DNA of 64,000 bases from positions 1-64,000 of the forward strand of contig NZ_PVBR01000003.1 of the NCBI RefSeq assembly GCF_002980495.1, written 5' to 3'. The notes under the pieces are model-generated. The model saw only the letters and a list, made by a program, of their open reading frames with translations, did not search any database and had not been told where the DNA came from. Numbering within the stretch: position 1 is the first letter of the stretch; each line of letters begins with the position of its first letter. A program made the position numbers and the translations under genes. The stretch comes from Phyllobacterium phragmitis. GTDB lineage: Bacteria; Pseudomonadota; Alphaproteobacteria; Rhizobiales; Rhizobiaceae. Below are positions 15,083 to 36,645 of the stretch, piece by piece.

Positions 15083-16335
15083 GCAAGCCTCGAGCGGAAC
15101 GCACCGATCGCCGCGGCAAGGGCCGGATGGCTCTTTGCATAATCATCGAGAGATATGCCTTCGGCTGCTGCCTGCCAGCCCTCGCGCAGGCTGGCTATAC
15201 CGCCGGCGAGACCGTCCGGATGCCCCATGATGCCGCCGCCTGCGCAGTAGATGAGATCGGTCGATTGCAGTGCCGCATAGGTATCTTCGATCTGCTCGGC
15301 AGACTGCCCCGACGAGAACACCGGCATCGCCACATAGTCCCGGCCGCCATCGAACAGCGGCGTGAGGCACTGTTTGGCGGATGCAATGGATGACGCGCCG
15401 TCCTCGCTGAACTTGTTGCGAAGACCGTTGACGTGGAGATGATCCACACCTGCGAGCCGCCAGAATTTCTGCCAGGCGATGAAGCTGATGCCGATATCGG
15501 GCGAGCGGGAAAAGAGACCCCAGCCGTTGCGATGTCCATGGATTGGAAGGTCGGTATGGCGGCGCAGCGCCGCCACGCCGGGCAAGCCGACGCTGTGGAT
15601 GCCCACCATCACGCAGGTGCCCCCAGCATCGCGCACGAGATCGGCGCCGCGTTTCATCTCGTCGATCTCGCCGGTGATGTTGAAGGCGTACATCGGTTTC
15701 TTGCCGGTGCGTTCCGCGTGATCGTTGAGAACGCGCATGATAGCTTTGACGCGGGCATCGAGCGGACAATGCGGCCCGTTTGCCTGCAACTCATCGTCCT
15801 TGACGAAATCGATTCCGCCCTCGGCAAGCTTTTTCACCAGCGCAGCCGTCGCCTCCGGATCGAGGCCGACGCTCGGTTTGATGATGGTGCCGATCAGCGG
15901 ACCGCTTTCAACACCCGCAAGCCTGCGTGTGCCGGCAATGCCGGCGGCGGGACCGGGATAGGCCTTGGCGAAATCATCGGGAAAGTTGATATCGAGCAGC
16001 CGCAGCGCCGAGACTTCGCGCAGTTCGAACAGATTGCCGGCGACGGTCGCAAGCGTATTGGGCAGCGACGGGCCGATATTCTCCATCGGCCAGGACAGGC
16101 CGATGCGCCCGCGCGTATAGACCTTGCCCTGCATCTTGCACGGCAGCGCCGGCGTGTCGGAACGGCCGGTTTCGACGATGGATTCGATGCGTGCGCCATG
16201 CGCCGCCTTGAGTGCTTCGGTCTCGCCTTCGATCTTCAGGAATGTCCCCGACGATTGCTCGCCCGCAATGACCGCCGCCGTATATGCGAGGTCCAACGGT
16301 GTCTCAAGTTCATATTCCGCATAGAGCCTGCTCAT
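15079..16335 (-). CDS. oiaX: RuBisCO-like protein (form IV), probable 3-oxo-isoapionate-4-phosphate processing enzyme
   Basis: A 418-residue RuBisCO-large-subunit homologue. The carbamylated-lysine motif is kept (GGIDFVKDDE, K179/D181/E182, equivalent to RuBisCO K201/D203/E204), as are the first catalytic lysine (K153 in IIKPS) and the phosphate-binding CAGGGIMGH. RuBisCO K177 is replaced by Ser155, so CO2 fixation is unlikely. In apiose catabolism such proteins either decarboxylate 3-oxo-isoapionate-4-phosphate or act as transcarboxylase/hydrolase giving 3-phosphoglycerate and glycolate. The start at 16335 is chosen for its GGAAGG site and usual family length. Confidence 0.82.
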   Translation of the reverse strand: MSRLYAEYELETPLDLAYTAAVIAGEQSSGTFLKIEGETEALKAAHGARIESIVETGRSDTPALPCKMQGKVYTRGRIGLSWPMENIGPSLPNTLATVAGNLFELREVSALRLLDINFPDDFAKAYPGPAAGIAGTRRLAGVESGPLIGTIIKPSVGLDPEATAALVKKLAEGGIDFVKDDELQANGPHCPLDARVKAIMRVLNDHAERTGKKPMYAFNITGEIDEMKRGADLVRDAGGTCVMVGIHSVGLPGVAALRRHTDLPIHGHRNGWGLFSRSPDIGISFIAWQKFWRLAGVDHLHVNGLRNKFSEDGASSIASAKQCLTPLFDGGRDYVAMPVFSSGQSAEQIEDTYAALQSTDLIYCAGGGIMGHPDGLAGGIASLREGWQAAAEGISLDDYAKSHPALAAAIGAFRSRLA

Positions 16336-16406
16336 CGCTTCCATCCTTCCCGGCAACAGTATCTTTGTCCGATTTCTTATCAGGCGATCCGTCATCAGAT
16401 CAACTC

Positions 16407-18394: not shown

Positions 18395-18566
18395 GAGGCA
18401 ACACCCCCCTCTGCCCTGCCGGGCATCTCCCCCTCAGGGGGGGAGATTACGCCTTCATAAACGCCCGGCACCAATCGCTGCCGTTGGAGGACGATAGGCG
18501 TGGTTCGTGTCAGCCAATCTCCCCCCTTGAGGGGGAGATGTCCGGCAGGACAGAGGGGGGTGCTTC
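18395..18566. repeat. Rhizobial palindromic intergenic element, about 170 bp (copy 1)
   Basis: The element begins two bases after the stop of the binding-protein gene. Its outer arms (18401-18435 and 18530-18564) are near-perfect inverted repeats rich in C and G runs, and inside them are smaller hairpins (ATCTCCCC...GGGGAGAT). A second copy of the same family lies at 29942-30110 inside nasA. It resembles the long palindromic mosaic repeats known from rhizobia and Brucella. Confidence 0.85.
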
Positions 18567-27860: not shown

Positions 27861-28952
27861 TCAAAACCTGGAGTTTGCGACGATCCGCTGATCGTCAGCC
27901 GGGATTGCTGCGATTCCGGGAATAATGTTCACTGCGATGCCGGTTCTTTGCAATTGAGCCGCGGTCTCATGTGCTGATCCAAATTCGTCGGATTTGAGCC
28001 ATACCACCCGCTGGCCGCCCTCGCGGACCATTGCCATCAGATGTTGCGGCGGCTTGCTGGAGCCGGTTGCCGCAACCCGTTTTGCCTCGCGACGGGCAAG
28101 TTGCAGGATATCCGTCGAGATGCCCTCGTCGAACAGGATGATTTCGGCCGCCTGCAGCGCCCTCACCGCCTTCAGTGGTAAAAGCTCCGCGTCGTGCGAC
28201 TTCACCTCAATGATCGTCGTATGCGTAGGCTCAGTACGGCCTGCCCCGGATGACAATTCCTCCAGGAAAAGCTGTTCGTCCCGCCGGGAAGGTGCTTCTT
28301 CCGCGGTGAAGGCACGATCGACGAAGCGCTCCCAGAATTGCCGCCTGCCCTCACCGGGCGCGAGCCGCTCCACCACCGCCATGCGCAGGCTTTGCGCCAG
28401 GTCGGTCCAAGCGGAGAGTGATTGCGGTAGCACGGCCTCGATCCTGCGGCGGATCGCCTGCGCCAGGATTGGGGCTGCGCCATCCGTCGAAATGCTGATC
28501 ACTGCCGGCGACCGGTTGACGATCGAGCCGAACTGGAACTGGCAATAGGCCGGTCTATCGATGACATTGAAGGGAACACCGGCCGTCCTTGCCGCGCTGG
28601 CGAAGGCCGCCGCCTCATCGTCACTCGCGGCGTCCGCGATGGCAATAGCGAAGGCAGGCCAATCGGCGCTTTGCCAGGAAGAATTGCGATGGAAAATCTT
28701 GCCGGGTCCGTGCGCCGCCAGGAGCCCGATCATCTCTTCGCAGAGATCGTCTGTCGCATGAACCTCCACCATTGCGCCGCTCATCACCAGCAGCTCCGCC
28801 TTCCAGGCGGCGGCTGCCGACCCGTGGGCAATCAAGGCCCTTTTTCCCTTCAGCGATATGAACAGCGGGAGGACGGATAGAGGAGCAATCCGCGATCGGC
28901 CGTCGGCTGTATTACTCGGCCGCCTGAACCGGGTGTTTTCGATGACGCGCAT
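27861..28952 (-). CDS. cysG: Siroheme synthase-like protein with a degenerate methylase domain
   Basis: A 363-residue protein, last gene of the nitrate operon. The N-terminal half matches the precorrin-2 dehydrogenase/ferrochelatase part of CysG (LPLFISLKGKRALIAHG, NVIDRP, VNRSPAVISISTDGAAPILA, GRRQFWERF). The C-terminal ~110 residues align only with the first third of the uroporphyrinogen methyltransferase domain. The GAGPGD and GGDPFIFGRG motifs are lost and it stops just after PGIAA, so methylase activity is unlikely. The start at 28952 (AGGGAG upstream) overlaps nasA by 41 bases. Siroheme is the cofactor of NirB. Confidence 0.8.
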   Translation of the reverse strand: MRVIENTRFRRPSNTADGRSRIAPLSVLPLFISLKGKRALIAHGSAAAAWKAELLVMSGAMVEVHATDDLCEEMIGLLAAHGPGKIFHRNSSWQSADWPAFAIAIADAASDDEAAAFASAARTAGVPFNVIDRPAYCQFQFGSIVNRSPAVISISTDGAAPILAQAIRRRIEAVLPQSLSAWTDLAQSLRMAVVERLAPGEGRRQFWERFVDRAFTAEEAPSRRDEQLFLEELSSGAGRTEPTHTTIIEVKSHDAELLPLKAVRALQAAEIILFDEGISTDILQLARREAKRVAATGSSKPPQHLMAMVREGGQRVVWLKSDEFGSAHETAAQLQRTGIAVNIIPGIAAIPADDQRIVANSRF

Positions 28953-31896
28953 CCAGTATCTCCCTGATTTCGGAGCGGCATGACCCGCAATTGGTTCCGG
29001 CATTGAGGGCGGTGCCGACCTCCTGCACCGAGCGGCAACCATTATCGATGGCCGCCACGATCTGGTTGATGCCGACGGAAAAGCATGAGCAGACGATGGC
29101 GCCAGAATCCGGCTGATCCGCCCCGGGCCGTCCGGCCATCACCGCGATGCGGCGACGGATCTCCGTATGCGCTATGCCAAGCTGCGTGACGGCCCATGTG
29201 CGCGAAACGGCCACCGGCTGGCGCGCGGCATAAAAGGCGAGCATAAGCTGTTCCCCGTCGAAAAAGGCAATCCGGCTATCGCCATTTTCCCGGTCGAAAT
29301 AGGCGAGCGCCTCCAGTTCATCCGGGAGCCGCCAGGTTTCCCGGCACCATGCCTCCCAGCCTCCCGGCTGCTCGGCAAAGGCGCATTCCATGCGGAAGCC
29401 ATGATCGACCTTGGCGATGGCGAAATAATCGGCGTTGTCGGGTATTGGCCGGTTCATCGACACCGCGAAGCCGTAGGAAGCCGTGGCGTATGGCTCTACG
29501 GAAACCCCGACATGCTTCAACGCGGGCTGACCGGAAACCGAATCGGTGATTGATGGCACCAGCACATCGACGCGGGCATTGGAGGCAAATTGGTCCGTCC
29601 AGTGGATCGGCACAAAGATAGAACTACGCGGTTGCCGGGCCGTGATCAGAGCGCGGACGACGATCTTGCCGTGAGGGCTGGCGATGCGGATAAGCGTCGC
29701 ATCGCCAGCCCCGAGCGCTCTTGCATCCGCCGGATTGATCTCGGCGAATGGCTCGGCAAGGTGGGCGGACAGCCGGGCGCTTTTGGCCGTTCGCGTCATG
29801 GTGTGCCACTGGTCGCGGATCCGTCCAGTGTTGAGAACCAGCGGGTACGCTGCATGGACACGCTCCGTCGCCATCGCTCGAACCGCGATGAAGCGCGCTT
29901 TGTGATCCGGGGTATAGAAGCGGCCATTGGCGAAAAAGCGCGAGGCACCCCCCTCTGCCCTGCCGGGCATCTCCCCCACAAGGGGGGAGATTGGCTGACG
30001 CAAATGTTGGTGCTTACCTTTCAACGCTTGTGATTTGGGGCCAGCATCTATGAAGGCCTGATCTCCCCCCTTGTGGGGGAGATGGCTGGCAAGCCAGAGG
30101 GGGGTGCCTCGGGCAGTTGCGGGCCATTGGAAGGGCTTCAACGTTTCATAAACGGCGTCAGAAATCCTCGCATAATCCCCAATATCGAAATCGCGCTCCC
30201 CCCCATTCTCAAAACCCGAAAGCGCCGCATGTTCTGCAAAAATCTGCGCCGGGTTCTCGAATGCGAAAGCCTCGCCAAACCCCATGCGCTTCGCCACATC
30301 GCAGATGATGCGCCAATCGCCGCGCGCCTCGCCGGGGAGCGGCAGGAAGGGGCGCTGGCGGGAAATCCGCCGTTCGGAATTGGTGACCGTGCCGTCCTTT
30401 TCGCCCCAGCCCGCCGCCGGAAGCAGCACATGGGCATATTGCGTCGTGTCGGTGTCGCGCATGATGTCGGAGACGACAACAAACGGGCAATTGCGGATCG
30501 CCTCGGCCACGCTATCGGCATCAGGCATGGAAACCACGGGATTGGTGCCCATGATCCACAGCGCCTTGATCCGCCCATCAGCCACGGCCTTGAACATGTC
30601 CACGGCCTTGAGGCCGGGCTTTTGGGCGATGGCAGGCGCATTCCAGAAACGCTGGACGCGCTCGCGATGCTCAGGCTTTTCGATTTCCATATGGGCGGCG
30701 AGCATATTGGCGAGCCCGCCGACCTCGCGCCCACCCATGGCGTTCGGTTGGCCGGTAAGCGAAAACGGCCCCATGCCCGGCCTGCCGATGCGCCCTGTCG
30801 CCAGATGGCAATTGATGATGGCGTTCACCTTGTCCGTACCGGATGAGGACTGGTTGACGCCCTGGCTATAGCAAGTGACGACCTTCTGCGTGGTCTCGAA
30901 CAGCCGGTAGAACGCGATGATTTCCTCGATGGAAAGGCCAGTGAGCGCGTGGGTCTCAGCCTCGCCTTTTTGCGCCGCCGCAAGCGCTTCGGCAAAACCG
31001 TTCGTATGGTCGCGGATGAAATCATCATCCATCGCCGGACTGCGGGCGAGATGCGCCAACAGACCGTTGAACAGCGCCACATCGCCATCCGGGCGAACGC
31101 TCAAATGCATGTCGGCGATATCGCAGGTCATGGTGCGACGCGGGTCGATGACCACGATCTTCATCGCCGGACGCTTTTCCTTGGCGCTGGCGATCCGCTG
31201 GTAGAGGACCGGATGGCACCAGGCGAGATTGGAGCCGGTGAGGATGATGAGATCGGCCTCTTCCAGATCCTCATAAACGCCCGGCACCGTATCCGAACCG
31301 AAGGCGCGCCTGTGACCTGCCACCGACGAGGCCATGCACAGTCGGGAATTGGTGTCGATATTGGCGGTGCCGATGAAGCCCTTCATCAGCTTGTTGGCCG
31401 CATAATAATCCTCGGTCAGCAACTGACCGGAAACATAGAACGCCACGGAATCCGGCCCATGCTCGGCAATTGCCTCAGAGAATTTCCGCGCCACGAGATC
31501 AAGCGCCTCGTCCCACGTCGCGCGGTTGGAATGCCGCGCTTGCCCCTCACCCTTACCCTCTCCCCGCACGCGGGGAGAGGGGGACATAGATATTGTCGCC
31601 ATTTCTTTTGAGCCAGGCACAGAAGAAGAAAGATGGGAAGCAACACCGATGCCCCCCTCCCCCCGTTCTTCACGGGGAGAGGGTAAGGGTGAGGGGCTAA
31701 TTTCGGGATAAAGCAGCCGTCCGTCGAGATCGAGCGTTTCGGCCAGCGCCGAACCCTTGGAACAGAGCCGCCCAAAATTGGCCGGATGATCCGGATCGCC
31801 CTTCACGCTGACCGCCCCATCATCCGCAACGCTGGCAATGACGCCGCAGCCGACGCCGCAATAAGGACAGGCTGTCTTGACCTCTGCCGTCATCAT
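28912..31896 (-). CDS. nasA: Assimilatory nitrate reductase, catalytic subunit, carrying two palindrome-encoded inserts
   Basis: A 994-residue molybdopterin enzyme reducing nitrate to nitrite. It has the N-terminal 4Fe-4S site (C10, C13, C17, C45), Mo-bisMGD domains and a C-terminal BFD-like [2Fe-2S] domain (IVCSCFSVGINQI...NCGSCRSE). NasA is normally about 885 residues. The excess is explained by two in-frame insertions, residues ~67-118 and ~596-652, encoded by palindromic repeats; 994 minus these 109 gives 885. Whether the protein tolerates them is unknown. The start ATGATG overlaps the nirD stop. Confidence 0.92.
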   Translation of the reverse strand: MMTAEVKTACPYCGVGCGVIASVADDGAVSVKGDPDHPANFGRLCSKGSALAETLDLDGRLLYPEISPSPLPSPREERGEGGIGVASHLSSSVPGSKEMATISMSPSPRVRGEGKGEGQARHSNRATWDEALDLVARKFSEAIAEHGPDSVAFYVSGQLLTEDYYAANKLMKGFIGTANIDTNSRLCMASSVAGHRRAFGSDTVPGVYEDLEEADLIILTGSNLAWCHPVLYQRIASAKEKRPAMKIVVIDPRRTMTCDIADMHLSVRPDGDVALFNGLLAHLARSPAMDDDFIRDHTNGFAEALAAAQKGEAETHALTGLSIEEIIAFYRLFETTQKVVTCYSQGVNQSSSGTDKVNAIINCHLATGRIGRPGMGPFSLTGQPNAMGGREVGGLANMLAAHMEIEKPEHRERVQRFWNAPAIAQKPGLKAVDMFKAVADGRIKALWIMGTNPVVSMPDADSVAEAIRNCPFVVVSDIMRDTDTTQYAHVLLPAAGWGEKDGTVTNSERRISRQRPFLPLPGEARGDWRIICDVAKRMGFGEAFAFENPAQIFAEHAALSGFENGGERDFDIGDYARISDAVYETLKPFQWPATARGTPLWLASHLPHKGGDQAFIDAGPKSQALKGKHQHLRQPISPLVGEMPGRAEGGASRFFANGRFYTPDHKARFIAVRAMATERVHAAYPLVLNTGRIRDQWHTMTRTAKSARLSAHLAEPFAEINPADARALGAGDATLIRIASPHGKIVVRALITARQPRSSIFVPIHWTDQFASNARVDVLVPSITDSVSGQPALKHVGVSVEPYATASYGFAVSMNRPIPDNADYFAIAKVDHGFRMECAFAEQPGGWEAWCRETWRLPDELEALAYFDRENGDSRIAFFDGEQLMLAFYAARQPVAVSRTWAVTQLGIAHTEIRRRIAVMAGRPGADQPDSGAIVCSCFSVGINQIVAAIDNGCRSVQEVGTALNAGTNCGSCRSEIREILDARHRKHPVQAAE
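29942..30110. repeat. Rhizobial palindromic element, 169 bp, inside nasA (copy 2)
   Basis: The outer 16 bases are perfect inverted repeats (29942-29957 and 30095-30110), with nested hairpins inside. The sequence matches the element at 18395-18566 closely in both arms. It lies between the codons for FQWP and FFANGRFYTPD of nasA and keeps the frame open, adding about 57 residues. Confidence 0.88.
31542..31697. repeat. Second-family palindromic element, 156 bp, inside nasA
   Basis: A perfect 24-base inverted repeat bounds the element (31542-31565 and 31674-31697, GCCCCTCACCCTTACCCTCT... and its complement). Each arm carries its own hairpin (CTCCCCGCACGCGGGGAG and CCCCGTTCTTCACGGGG). The length is exactly 52 codons, so it inserts 52 residues between LLYPEI and ATWDEALDL of NasA without a stop or frameshift. 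Confidence 0.88.
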
Positions 31897-32225
31897 TCCG
31901 CGGCTGCCAGCATCAGGCTTTCGAGCGCGATGAAGAGTTTTCCATCTTCGTTGCGCACGGGGATTGTCCGCACCTCGCCCTCGTCCGCGCCCAGCGCCCT
32001 GCCGGTCTCCAGCGAAATCACCCAATTGTGCAGCGGGCAGGTGACGGCGCGGCCATGGACGATGCCTTGGCTGAGCGGGCCACCCCTGTGTGGACAGTGG
32101 TCTTCGATCGCGAAGACATCATTCTCCGCCGTGCGGAACACCGCGATCTTGCCCTGCGGCGTCTTCACGCAGCGCGCGCCACGCAGCGGGATATCCGAGA
32201 GTTCGCCGATTTCGATCCAGTTCAT
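31893..32225 (-). CDS. nirD: Nitrite reductase small subunit
   Basis: A 110-residue Rieske-type [2Fe-2S] protein with both cluster motifs (CPHRG and CPLHNW; Cys-His pairs). It partners NirB in NADH-dependent reduction of nitrite to ammonium. The start at 32225 (MNWIEIGEL) is preferred over upstream in-frame ATGs because it matches the family start. It is separated from nirB by about 200 bases largely filled by a repeat, and overlaps nasA by 4 bases. Confidence 0.94.
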   Translation of the reverse strand: MNWIEIGELSDIPLRGARCVKTPQGKIAVFRTAENDVFAIEDHCPHRGGPLSQGIVHGRAVTCPLHNWVISLETGRALGADEGEVRTIPVRNEDGKLFIALESLMLAAAE

Positions 32226-32261
32226 CGCTTGCTCTTTTCTCATTTCCATCATGTCCTTCAT

Positions 32262-32402
32262 CCTCGTCCCTCGAGGCTCATTTCGCTTCGCTTCATTCGT
32301 ACCTCAGGATGAGGATGAAGGACGTCGCAGTAGCCCTCATCCTGAGGTGCATAGTGGACCCTGAGTTTGTCGAAGGGGGAACGAAGCCTCGAAGGACGAG
32401 GG
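32262..32402. repeat. Third-family palindromic repeat between nirB and nirD
   Basis: Imperfect outer arms (CCTCGTCCC-TCGAGGC near 32262 and GCCTCGAAGGACGAGGG near 32386-32402) enclose an exact inverted pair, ACCTCAGGATGAGG (32301-32314) and CCTCATCCTGAGGT (about 32334-32347). It fills most of the nirD-nirB gap. Sequences of this look are common intergenic repeats in the order. Confidence 0.75.
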
Positions 32403-32423
32403 CGCCTGGCAAATCCGTCAGCA

Positions 32424-34874
32424 CTATTCCGCCGCTCCGGCATATTCCACCGTCGCCATCGGCTTGAACTCATGCTTGTCCTTGCCCGAGACGCGCTCGG
32501 ACCAGGGATCGACCTGGGCGAATTTCTGGGAAAAGACGAAGCGCTCGTAATACATCTTGCGCTTGTCGTGATCGGTCATGATCTGGCGGCGAATCTCTTC
32601 AAGGCCGATGCGCTTTGCCCATTTGTAGATGCGTTCGAGATAACGGCCCTGCTCGCGATACATCTGCGTCAGCGCCACGATATGCTCCAACGCCTCGTCC
32701 TCGGTCTTCACCAACCCCAGCACGTCGGTGCCCTTGATATCGAGGCCCGCTGCGCCGGCGAAATGGATCTCGTAGCCTGAATCGACGCAGATAACGCCAA
32801 TGTCCTTGCAGGTCGCCTCGGCGCAATTGCGTGGGCAGCCCGAGACCGCCAGCTTCAGCTTGGCCGGGGTCCACGACCCCCACATGAATTTCTCGATGCG
32901 GATGCCGAAGCCCGTTGAATCCTGCGTGCCGAAGCGGCACCAGTCGGAGCCGACGCAGGTTTTCACCGTGCGCAAGCCCTTGGCATAGGCCTGGCCTGAG
33001 ACGAACCCCGCCTGCCCCAGATCGGCCCAGACAGCGGGAAGATCCTCCTTCTCGATGCCGAGCAGGTCGATGCGCTGGCCGCCCGTCACCTTGACCAACG
33101 GCACGTTGAACTTGTCCACCACATCGGCGATGGCGCGCAGTTCTTTAGCGTTGGTCACACCGCCCCACATGCGCGGCACGACCGAATAGGTGCCGTCCTT
33201 CTGGATGTTGGCGTGGACGCGCTCGTTGATGTAGCGCGACTGGTAATCATCGGCATATTCATCCGGCCAGTCGCAGACGAGATAATAATTGAGCGCCGGG
33301 CGGCATTTGGCGCAGCCGCAGGACGTCTTCCATTCCAGTTCCTGCATGACGGCGGGAATGGTCTTCAGCCCCTTGGCCTTGATCAGCCGGCGCACATCGT
33401 CATGGCCCAGATCCGTGCAGGTGCACATCGGCGTGACGGCGGCGGGGTTGTAGGCATCGCCGAGCGTCAGCTTCATGAGCTGTTCGACCAGCCCGGTGCA
33501 GGAGCCGCAGGAGGCGGACGCCTTGGTGTGCGCCCTGACATCGTCGAGCGAGGTCAGGCCCTTGGCTGTGATGGTCGAAGTGATCGTGCTTTTGCACACG
33601 CCGTTACAGCCGCAGATTTCCGCATCATCTGGCAAGGCTGCAACGGCCGCCATAGGGTCCAGGGGGGCGCCTCCCTGATAGGCCTGGCCGAAGATAAGCG
33701 TGTCGCGCATTTCCGAGACATCGGTCTGTTTACGCAACAGGTCGAAGAACCACGCGCCATCGCCGGTTTCGCCGTAAAGCACGGCGCCGAGGATGCGGTT
33801 TTCCTTCAGCACCAACCGCTTGTAGATGCCCGCGCTCGCATCGCGCAGCACGATCTCCTGACGGTCGTCGCTATCTGCGAAATCGCCGGCGGAATAAAGG
33901 CTGACGCCGGTGACTTTCAGCTGCGTCGCGGTTTCCACCGGACGGAAGGCGGCGTCCTGCTTGAGAAGCGTCTTCGCCGCCACCTTGGCCATGTCATAGA
34001 GCGGGGCGACGAGGCCGTAGCAGATGCGCTCATGCTCGACGCACTCGCCGAGGCTAAGAATGTCCGGGTCAGACGATACCATCTGGTCATTGACGACGAT
34101 GCCGCGCTCGACATAGAGGCCCGCATCGGTCGCGACGCGCACTTCCGGGCGAATGCCGACCGCCATCACCACGATGTCGGCTGGATAGACGGTGCCGTCA
34201 TCAAGCCCCACCGCCTCGACGCGATCCTTGCCGAGGATCGCCGTGGTCTGCGCCTTGCAGTGGACCTTGATCCCCCTGCCCTCAAGCTCTTTCTGCAGGA
34301 GATAGCCCGCCGCCGGATCGAGTTGGCGTTCCATCAAATGACCCATCAGGTGGAGAACGACCACCTCCATGCCACGCAAGCGAAGCGCCGCCGCCGCCTC
34401 CAGGCCCAGAAGACCGCCGCCGATCACCACTGCCTTCGCATTGGGCTTGCCCGCCGCCTCCACCATGGCATCGACATCGTCGAGATCGCGGAAGGCGCGC
34501 ACGCCGGGCAGATCCTTGCCCACTATGGGGATGATGAACGGCGCGGAGCCGGTGGCTACCACCAATTTGTCGTAGGGTGTTTCGCCCTTCGCGGTGGTGA
34601 TGAACTTGTTCTGGCGATCGATCCTGGTGACCGTCTCACCGAAGCGGCAGTTGACACCGTTTGAGGCATACCAGTCGGCGTCATGCGTGACGATCTGCTC
34701 GTAGGTCTTCTCGCCGGCGAGCACCGGCGACAACATGATGCGGTTATAGTTTCCGCGCGGTTCGGCCCCGAAGAGCGTCACGTCGAAAGCGCCGGGCGCT
34801 ACCTCGAAAAGATGTTCGAGCATACGCCCGGAGGCCATGCCGGCGCCGACGACGACGAGTTTCTGTTTTACCAT
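32424..34874 (-). CDS. nirB: NADH-dependent nitrite reductase large subunit
   Basis: An 816-residue enzyme reducing nitrite to ammonium. N-terminal FAD (VVGAGMASGRML) and NADH (VVIGGGLLGLEAA) domains are followed by a BFD-type [2Fe-2S] segment (ICGCNGVCKSTI, CGSCTGLV). The sulfite/nitrite reductase domain comes last with the siroheme-4Fe4S cysteines (TCVGSDWCRFG and SGCPRNCAEA). The start at 34874 follows AGGAGG. It depends on siroheme, hence the link with cysG at the operon end. Confidence 0.95.
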   Translation of the reverse strand: MVKQKLVVVGAGMASGRMLEHLFEVAPGAFDVTLFGAEPRGNYNRIMLSPVLAGEKTYEQIVTHDADWYASNGVNCRFGETVTRIDRQNKFITTAKGETPYDKLVVATGSAPFIIPIVGKDLPGVRAFRDLDDVDAMVEAAGKPNAKAVVIGGGLLGLEAAAALRLRGMEVVVLHLMGHLMERQLDPAAGYLLQKELEGRGIKVHCKAQTTAILGKDRVEAVGLDDGTVYPADIVVMAVGIRPEVRVATDAGLYVERGIVVNDQMVSSDPDILSLGECVEHERICYGLVAPLYDMAKVAAKTLLKQDAAFRPVETATQLKVTGVSLYSAGDFADSDDRQEIVLRDASAGIYKRLVLKENRILGAVLYGETGDGAWFFDLLRKQTDVSEMRDTLIFGQAYQGGAPLDPMAAVAALPDDAEICGCNGVCKSTITSTITAKGLTSLDDVRAHTKASASCGSCTGLVEQLMKLTLGDAYNPAAVTPMCTCTDLGHDDVRRLIKAKGLKTIPAVMQELEWKTSCGCAKCRPALNYYLVCDWPDEYADDYQSRYINERVHANIQKDGTYSVVPRMWGGVTNAKELRAIADVVDKFNVPLVKVTGGQRIDLLGIEKEDLPAVWADLGQAGFVSGQAYAKGLRTVKTCVGSDWCRFGTQDSTGFGIRIEKFMWGSWTPAKLKLAVSGCPRNCAEATCKDIGVICVDSGYEIHFAGAAGLDIKGTDVLGLVKTEDEALEHIVALTQMYREQGRYLERIYKWAKRIGLEEIRRQIMTDHDKRKMYYERFVFSQKFAQVDPWSERVSGKDKHEFKPMATVEYAGAAE

Positions 34875-34884
34875 GTTGTTCCTC

Positions 34885-36645
34885 CTATTCCGCCGCTTCC
34901 GTGCGGACCACCTTCTGGCGGGCAATGCGTGCAAGACGCCTTTCCTTGATCGAGCAAAGCTGATCTTCGTCAGGATTGGCGCCACCTTCATAGGCTTCCA
35001 AAAAATCGAGAAGTTCCTCGCGATAGGCGTAGTAATCGGGGTGGGCGAGCAGTTGCTTGCGGGTTCTCGGCCGCGGCAGGTCCACTTCCATGATGTTACC
35101 GATCCGGGCATTCGGTCCGTTCGACATCATCACCACGCGGTCAGCGAGAAGAATGGCCTCGTCGACGTCGTGGGTCACGCAGATCGCCGTCACCTTGGTG
35201 CGCTTCCAGACATCCATCAACACTTCCTGCAACTCCCACCGCGTCAGGCTGTCGAGCATGCCGAAAGGCTCGTCGAGAAGCAGAAGCTTCGGCGAGAGCG
35301 CAAAGGCCCGGGCGATGCCGACACGCTGCTTCATGCCGTTGGAAAGATCAGCGGCAAACCTGTGCATGGCATCTCCGAGACCGACGCGCGCGAGATAGTA
35401 TTCGACGATATCCTTTCGCTCGCCCGGCGAGGCTTTGGGGTAGACCTTGTCAACGCCGAGGGCGACATTCTCGCGGGCGGTGAGCCACGGCATGAGCGAA
35501 GGCGCCTGGAACACGACGGCACGGTCGGGACCCGCTCCGCTCACTTCGCGATTGTCGAGGATGATGCCCCCCGATGTAATCGGATTGAGGCCGGCGACCA
35601 TCGACAGAACAGTGGACTTGCCGCAGCCCGAATGACCGATGATGGAGACGAACTCGCCCTTTTTCATCTTCATGTCGAAGCCGTCGACAACCGTCAGCGG
35701 ACCCTTCGGCGTCGGGTATACCTTGCTTACCTCGAAAAACTCGACATAGCCTTTTTCCACCGTGGAGCGTGCCTTTTGGGCATAGGCGGCGGGCAGTTTA
35801 TCCGGCTGGGGTTTTTGGGTGATCGGCACGACATTCGGCAGATCGATCAGCCGTGCGCCCTCGCCGGACCGGCTGGTACCGAGATCGATCAGATATTCCG
35901 TCACCTCCGCGCGGATGCGGACGAATTCGGGATTGGAATTGAGCTCGCCGCGATCGCGCGGACGCGGAATATCGACCTTGAAGCTCTTGCCGAGTGTGGC
36001 TCCGGGGCCCGGCGTCAAAGGTATGATGCGATCGGCAAGCAGGATGGCCTCGTCCACGTCATTGGTGATGAGAACGATCGTCTTCTTTTCCCTTTCGCAG
36101 ATCTCGGCGAATTCGTCCTGAAGCTTCGACCGCGTCAGCGCGTCGAGCGCGGAAAGCGGTTCGTCGAGCAGAAGCACTTCGGGCTGCATGGCGAGCGCCC
36201 TGGCGACCGAGACACGCTGGCGCATGCCTCCCGACAATTCTGCCGGCTTGCGGTCAACCGCATGGGCGAGCCCCACCATTTCAATATACCGGCTGACCAG
36301 CTCGCGCCTTTCGCGCTTCGGCTTCGCCTTGTGAACGCTGTTAACCGCGAGCGCCACATTGCCCTGCACGGTGAGCCACGGCATCAGCGCATAGGACTGA
36401 AAGACAACCCCACGCTCCGGCTCGGGGCCTGTTACTTCCCGGTTTTTGAAAAGGAGCGCGCCGCTGTCCGGCACGGAGAGGCCCGCGAGCAGAGAAATCA
36501 ATGTCGACTTGCCGGACCCTGAAAAGCCGACAATCGCGACAAACTCGCCTTCCTCCACCTTCAGGTCCACATTGGCGAGAACCTCGTTGTGGCCCTTCCC
36601 CGTACCGAAGGACTTGCAAACGTCGCTTGCTTCGAGAATTGGCAT
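34885..36645 (-). CDS. Nitrate ABC transporter, fused double ATP-binding protein (NrtC/NrtD type)
   Basis: A 586-residue protein with two complete TauB/SsuB-like ATPase domains. Domain 1 has Walker [10 protein letters not shown] (40-48), signature LSGGMRQRV and Walker B LLLDEPLS, but Asn195 in place of the H-loop histidine (ITNDVDEA). Domain 2 has Walker [10 protein letters not shown], signature LSNGMKQRV (G to N) and a normal H-loop THDVDEA. It replaces the separate NrtC and NrtD proteins of cyanobacteria and has no NrtA-like C-terminal domain. It lies between nrtB and nirB with short gaps. Confidence 0.92.

Follow-up and report, generated by a model that had tools for sequence, protein, structure and literature searches.

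In-frame palindromic elements at repeatedly occupied sites in nasA and other genes of Phyllobacterium phragmitis and its relatives

How do two unrelated palindromes come to lie in frame within one conserved metalloenzyme gene, and what becomes of the enzyme that carries them? The question is raised by nasA, which encodes an assimilatory nitrate reductase, in a 64,000-nucleotide stretch of the Phyllobacterium phragmitis genome (contig NZ_PVBR01000003.1, positions 1 to 64,000; hereafter ‘the window’). The best-documented cases of palindromes turned protein sequence come from Rickettsia and Wolbachia; here they are seen in members of the Rhizobiaceae with large genomes, core enzymes included, DNA polymerase I among them. 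Our answer, which we consider probable, is that mobile palindromic elements have been captured recurrently at tolerant places, kept only in frame, and then eroded, replaced or nested. G000 denotes the genome under study, G001–G005 five congeneric species (genus code g1), and other G and L codes further genomes and loci; families 1–4 are families of palindromic elements, and sites A and B the two insert positions in nasA.

The nasA reading frame is open through both palindromes (Table 1). Pfam recognises an Fe4S4 domain (residues 5–54), a molybdopterin domain (124–537), a dinucleotide-binding domain (686–796) and a C-terminal BFD [2Fe-2S] domain (934–982), sites A and B occupying the gaps between the first three; the NCBIfam models for formate dehydrogenase alpha, NasC, NasA and NapA came out on top, the 25 best of 30 matches all falling below their curated cut-offs. 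Among 80 named loci compared, the closest NasA sequences are rhizobial, and that of G022, a genome of the host's family, equals the Rhizobium skierniewicense NasA in the tree alignment (L010, L039). The inverted arms at site B span 61 nt and are 87% complementary (29931-29991/30061-30121), those at site A 25 nt and 100% (31542-31566/31673-31697). As coding-strand RNA, the two inserts are predicted to fold at −116.9 kcal/mol (site B, z −10.9) and −114.1 kcal/mol (site A, z −11.9), with none of 200 shuffles as good in either case. Coordinates, arms and open frame confirm the two in-frame palindromes that an earlier note had described from the sequence alone, and the two belong to different interspersed families of G000. 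The note's arithmetic needs adjusting: the site B linker measures 60 residues against the usual 10 (+50) and the site A segment 63 against the usual 8 (+55), rather than gains of about 57 and 52, and the insert-free length of the 994-residue product is about 889, not 885. NasA relatives free of inserts are mostly 883–901 residues long, the exceptions being L006 (928) and L011 (706, a contig-end fragment). No Rfam family reached its cut-off within 28900–32500; the single match, to ylbH, was sub-threshold (20 of 50 bits), and a known RNA family was rejected as the identity of the inserts.

Modelled with AlphaFold2 alongside 58 relatives, the intact NasA reached a mean predicted local distance difference test score (pLDDT) of 85.9 and a predicted template modelling score (pTM) of 0.87. 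The pLDDT fell below 50 at residues 77–119 and 601–650, as well as at 384–386 and the last five residues; the two long segments both lie inside inserts. The top Foldseek match of the model is the periplasmic nitrate reductase 2jio (TM-score 0.90 by target length), and sequence comparison puts site A between positions 66 and 79 of that chain, and site B between positions 523 and 579. Both inserts appear in this model as predicted disordered loops between the domains of a confidently modelled enzyme, in agreement with the tolerated loops that the earlier note had offered as one explanation.

Both elements are abundant outside nasA. A first look at G000 gave 129 family-1 candidates (40 scored) and 32 family-2 candidates (all scored), and 400 kb of contig C1 that had not been chosen for elements hold 32 family-1 matches, 24 of them full length. 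Family 3 has 103 first-look candidates in G001 (40 scored) but one place in the 0.864 Mb sampled from G000 (made up of C1:1-400000, the 64-kb window and twenty selected stretches of 20 kb; half of the sample was picked for element density). Beyond these genomes, family 1 occurs on 184 plasmid records, 144 of them from Rhizobium or Sinorhizobium. Any given reading frame is open in 5–20 of 55 family-1 copies of G000. In the 51 full copies, the family-1 unit frequently sits at the centre of a longer composite palindrome whose outer arms are of GTTTTGATGGAATCGCGAGGCA type; a motif test found the outer inverted repeats on both sides in 13 of the 51, and in pbpC of G000 the outer arms are also within the translated frame (by eye), so palindromes within palindromes are common in this genome. 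By eye, base changes in the family-1 arms look paired (GCCC/GGGC, GTCC/GGAC, GGCT/AGCC).

In the G000 sample, in-frame palindromes occur in cobN (two), pbpC, polA and cydD, besides the two in nasA; the search went via long open frames, which broken genes would escape, and of 24 rows of repeats in open frames we read nine and those with family 1. The same places in the five congeners, which had not been chosen for open frames, hold a changing cast of elements (Table 1). Since different families at one place cannot stem from a single insertion, and such differences are found at cydD, cobN and polA as much as at nasA site B, we read the pattern as repeated capture; the independent events of different families suggested by the earlier note are borne out and extend to other genes and genera. 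Family 3, the high-copy family of G001, fills both nasA site B and cydD there. The inserts are not a recent accident, because they are shared among congeners. In cobN, as in pbpC, the frame in which the family-1 element is read differs among species.

Table 1. Coordinates of the features in the window, and occupancy of the insert places in six congeneric species
Feature	Position	Strand	Content or basis
nasA, assimilatory nitrate reductase	28912..31896	minus	994 aa; Pfam, NCBIfam, relatives
Site B insert	29942..30110 (169 bp)	minus	Family-1 element, translation TPLWLASHLPHKGGD...QPISPLVGEMPGRAEGG; between molybdopterin and dinucleotide-binding domains
Site B, whole variable linker	29941..30120	minus	Residues 593-652, between QWP and RFFANG
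Site A insert	31542..31697 (156 bp)	minus	Family-2 element, translation SPSPLPSPREERGEGG...SPSPRVRGEGKGEG; between Fe4S4 and molybdopterin domains
Site A, whole variable segment	31516..31704	minus	Residues 65-127
Second full-length family-1 copy in the window	18402..18562	minus (strand per family model)	Not spanned by any long open frame
nasA site A, six species			Family 2 in G000 and G001 (84% DNA identity over 157 nt); 6 residues between PEI/PEV and the WD motif in the other four
nasA site B, six species			Family 1 in G000, G002, G003 and G004; family 3 in G001; 14 residues in G005, keeping 17 nt of the family-1 end
pbpC			Family 1 in 6/6; reading frame differs among species
cobN site 1			Family 1 in five (G001 by eye); short scar in G005
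cobN site 2			Family 1 in G000 and G001; shortened family 1 in G003 and G005; family 2 in G002 and G004
cobN inserts of G000			Both family 1, inside PF02514
polA			Family-2 half in G000, between the 5'-3' exonuclease part and the remainder; family-1 remnant in G005; none recognised in four
cydD linker, before the ATPase part			Family 4 (CTCATCCTGAGG-type) in G000; family 3 in G001; family 2 in G002 and G004; none in G003; gene unmatched in G005

All 25 filled or scarred sites of G001–G005 stay open, a count whose members are not independent (shared descent), against 5–20 of 55 for a given frame of the family-1 copies of G000; a stop reported in G005 for polA is upstream of its PolA part. This regularity bears on the idea that the inserts are removed from the product by RNA splicing or bypassed by the ribosome, to which such extreme hairpins within coding sequence might point. 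A bypassed segment would not need its frame and length to be kept, as they are in all 25 congeneric cases, and we regard removal as highly improbable. Palindromes are also hard to assemble, and the earlier note had named assembly error as a way in which its finding might fall; the same sites are filled in the separately assembled genomes of six species and, for site B, in a Mesorhizobium temperatum record, which leaves such an error extremely unlikely. In cobN, similar inserts are seen beyond the genus: a query for its second site matched 51 of 297 genomes of the family, and the 21 loci parsed from the best 30 (five from the genus, 16 from eleven other genera) by eye all show palindrome-type peptides, in several frames, in a list that was ranked by an insert-bearing query and in which nine of the 30 loci were unparsed. 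One further cobN locus carries a 36-nt exact inverted repeat at site 2.

Recent loss of selection on nasA was the earlier note's other explanation, the inserts then being drift in a gene that is losing its function, as two large inserts in one metalloenzyme might suggest. The rest of the gene speaks otherwise: outside site B, the ratio of nonsynonymous to synonymous change (dN/dS, by Nei-Gojobori) is 0.13–0.15, with dS of 0.42–0.93, across the six pairs formed by G000, G002, G003 and G004, and it is 0.13 between G000 and G001 with both sites excluded. An alignment of ten NasA sequences shows no change in the NSRLCM segment or in the cysteines of either cluster motif, the frame is open in all six congeneric species, and DNA polymerase I and cobN bear the same kind of insert. 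Decay is, on these grounds, very unlikely. The inserts themselves follow another course. In the same six pairs, the site B insert has a dN/dS of 0.56–0.93, and its peptide is far freer to change than the enzyme. Its hairpin arms differ at 5–12 of 96–99 nt (dS 0.00–0.14, dN 0.04–0.16), whereas its middle loop differs at 17–31 of 60 nt, with dS of 0.82–1.26 or saturated and dN/dS of 0.31–0.60 where calculable; the arms age differently from the loop and from the silent sites of the gene. Site A, compared between G000 and G001, gives a dN/dS of 0.78 for the insert and 0.53 for its loop, and a dS of 0.04 for its arms.

Arms so little changed, very stable predicted RNA hairpins, and a pbpC site that is filled in all six species could also mean that the hairpins or their peptides are useful, as a translation pause, an aid to RNA stability or a binding peptide, and are held by selection. 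Several observations speak against this: frames differ among species in pbpC and cobN, on which ground a selected peptide was rejected; families are swapped between species; G005 has short scars; the dN/dS of the site B insert is as high as given above; and nonsynonymous changes are no rarer in the arms than in the gene (dN 0.06–0.14). We consider a useful insert unlikely.

How widely site B has been occupied was followed in 149 NasA sequences from genome searches, contig searches and direct stretches, 147 of them measurable at the two sites (L037 and L094, which the pattern missed, lie outside the set). Loci were ranked with an insert-bearing query (145 of 394 genomes matched; the best 30 loci and 20 more were taken), so that the set is enriched in inserts and its counts are not frequencies. 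Site B linkers comprise 8–14 residues in 125 sequences, 16–24 in seven and 44–121 in 15, the last group being G000–G004, Mesorhizobium temperatum (L043), G117, G219, G312, G208, G268, G254, G322, G362 and G398. Site A, in contrast, has 8 residues in 131 of the 147 and is long in two, this genome and one congener. Had the same insert residues been found in many distant NasA proteins, the earlier note would have withdrawn its proposal; the outcome is mixed: site A offers nothing of the kind, and at site B family 1 is present in several genera, in a minority of sequences. By match, eleven of the 15 long linkers contain family 1 (G000, G002, G003, G004, M. temperatum, G117, G219, G312, G268, G322 and G362) and two contain family 3 (G001, and G208 with 79% over 100 nt), while two match no family: the insert DNA of G254 folds better than 100 shuffles (z −2.95), and that of G398 has only 10-nt exact inverted arms. 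A family-3-like piece comes after the family-1 element in G268, the family-1 elements of G322 and G362 each enclose a second stretch of palindromic character, and a 19-residue stretch in G130 matches half of family 2 (31 nt, 81%). A by-eye tally that put at least five families at site B did not hold: matching supports two, with a likely third (G130) and two unclassified inserts. Across these sequences, site B is a hotspot of long inserts.

Shorter traces of elements are also present at site B. Matching identified scars of 17 nt in G005, of 13 nt within a 24-nt perfect palindrome in G309, and of 30 nt, partly flank, in G427; L048 gave no family match as a scar. What is left in G309 (L166) is the outer 12 bases of each family-1 arm, directly abutting and in frame, and the scar looks like a palindrome whose centre has been deleted. 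In the named plasmid records, among the best 20 of 66 and the best 20 of 232 matches, the match lengths leave no room for the inserts. Rhizobium sp. RU36D (L037), for which a 3.6-kb match had suggested a NasA with a very long insert, was rejected, its NasA being ordinary, with a 10-residue linker; family-1-like peptide stretches upstream of the gene (L037:3950-4300) are the source of the long tblastn match.

One old family-1 insertion at site B, inherited, spread by short recombination tracts and lost many times, is a rival for that family. In all eleven cases, whatever the clade, the family-1 insert begins at the same codon, within one residue, and is read in one frame; QWPAP precedes it in ten (QWPAT in G000), and the right-hand flanks of G002, G004 and M. 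temperatum look similar (RQPI/RQPV). On the other side, a tree of 88 NasA sequences places the carriers in at least three separate clades and requires nine changes of the family-1 state, at least six of them forced by starred branches, although this was a quick maximum-likelihood tree (columns filled in fewer than 60% of rows dropped; long-branch warnings) whose counts include losses and replacements and do not distinguish gain from loss. Loop sequences are divided. Those of M. temperatum, G312 and G117, three of the five Mesorhizobium-type loops, are mutually nearest, though for G219 and G268 the closest sequences are copies from G000; within the genus, the loops of G002 and G003 are closest to each other (0.73), and two of four, those of G000 and G004, are nearest to unrelated genomic copies, so that these loops favour neither one event nor several as the origin of the genus's insert. 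Conversion with other copies would explain such kinship, as would re-insertion, though it is proof of neither. Separate events are needed in any case for family 3, which G001 and G208 carry. A single old insertion is possible in our judgement, though doubtful.

We return to recurrent capture at tolerant places. High-copy, hairpin-forming elements would land widely in the genome, being mobile in trans, and copies within genes would survive only where the frame stays open and the protein can accommodate 40–60 disordered residues; the sites would then be picked by tolerance and not by targeting. A few places (nasA site B, the cydD and polA linkers, two in cobN and one in pbpC) would be taken repeatedly by whichever family is abundant in the lineage. 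The hairpin would be translated rather than skipped and the enzyme would keep its function, as far as can be judged from sequence; the middle of the insert would drift with little constraint, its arms staying near the genome-wide family sequence through conversion or re-insertion, and its later fates might include in-frame shortening, replacement or the entry of another palindrome.

Several observations weigh against so simple a scheme. The shared insertion codon and single frame of family 1 at site B are not predicted by pure tolerance. From the contrast between arms and loops, conversion, re-insertion or selection on the hairpin must be acting, and a site B loop dN/dS below 1 makes weak constraint possible. 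The nearest relative of the nasA loop is a genomic copy both for G000 (0.71) and for G004 (0.82), the copies compared being from G000 only. G008 has 45 family-1 matches, yet its NasA (L016) has a linker of 8 residues; presence of the element alone is not enough. No transposase was identified for the elements, a related insertion sequence not having been searched for, and by eye no target-site duplication was identified at the flanks of the 51 full family-1 copies of G000, where the outer repeats of 13 would hide one.

A bolder extension, which we put forward tentatively, is that linkers and loops of conserved enzymes act as shared docking slots: a resident palindrome would attract others, by nesting, exchange or conversion with other families, and the filling of a slot would change from lineage to lineage without loss of enzyme function. 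If so, palindrome turnover would be a standing source of new protein loops across the Rhizobiaceae.

Among named repeats, family 1, with its many copies on Rhizobium and Sinorhizobium plasmids, may be a relative of the rhizobial intergenic repeats known as Rhizobium-specific intergenic mosaic elements (RIME), which were reportedly described by Osteras et al. in 1995. RIME, a named repeat in the relevant parts of PMC2245857 and PMC2873474, are named as intergenic, unlike the in-gene copies seen here. Closer in mode are the Rickettsia palindromic elements (RPE) and their Wolbachia counterparts (WPE), which, according to the passages on them in PMC3767692 and PMC10969869, comprise several families of about 100–150 bp inserted in frame in genes, with orthologues carrying inserts at the same locus and the encoded segments in solvent-exposed areas. 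As with RPE, the palindromes lie in frame in existing genes (nasA twice, cobN twice, pbpC, polA and cydD), at 156 and 169 bp slightly above the RPE range. Unlike RPE, they belong to a host in the Rhizobiaceae with a 5.6-Mb genome rather than to Rickettsia or Wolbachia, one place holds different families across species, elements are nested and the frame varies. Insertion hotspots are left open, and not excluded, in the pertinent section of PMC3767692, and the RPE hotspot question becomes directly testable here.

Non-autonomous inverted-repeat elements, among them miniature inverted-repeat transposable elements (MITEs), ERIC and Yersinia repeats, are sometimes fused in frame with genes, as the corresponding passages of PMC2759123 and PMC10969869 recount. 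Our elements share the MITE-like traits of terminal inverted repeats and many dispersed copies; they differ from these repeats, as described in those passages, in that several families turn over at one protein place. Their units of about 150–170 bp are outside the 20–40 bp given for REP, the extragenic palindromes, in the relevant text of PMC3733652. A 2024 review, in its part on this topic, treats a similar mechanism in other prokaryotes as merely conceivable (PMC10969869), and a literature search, outside which most subscription journals lay, returned no report of palindromes translated inside rhizobial genes. In-gene palindromes in the Rhizobiaceae, with turnover of families at fixed sites, are what sets this case apart, the RPE-like mode being already known. 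The six congeneric genomes amount to a natural experiment on where in an enzyme some 50 additional residues can be accepted, and they carry a warning for annotation, as such inserts are neither frameshifts nor domains.

Two further loci carry palindromes of these kinds. Beyond nasA, palindromes of the CTCATCCTGAGG-type at 32253-32408 (arms 32253-32269/32307-32323 and 32301-32314/32335-32348), by eye of the same type as the cydD insert, separate an open reading frame at 32424-35111 from a small one just upstream of nasA (NirB-/NirD-like by eye). At L195:15506-16852 (minus strand), a partial family-1 element (16294-16343) lies between CbiG_C and TP_methylase domains in a single open frame, as if it had fused two adjoining cobalamin genes.

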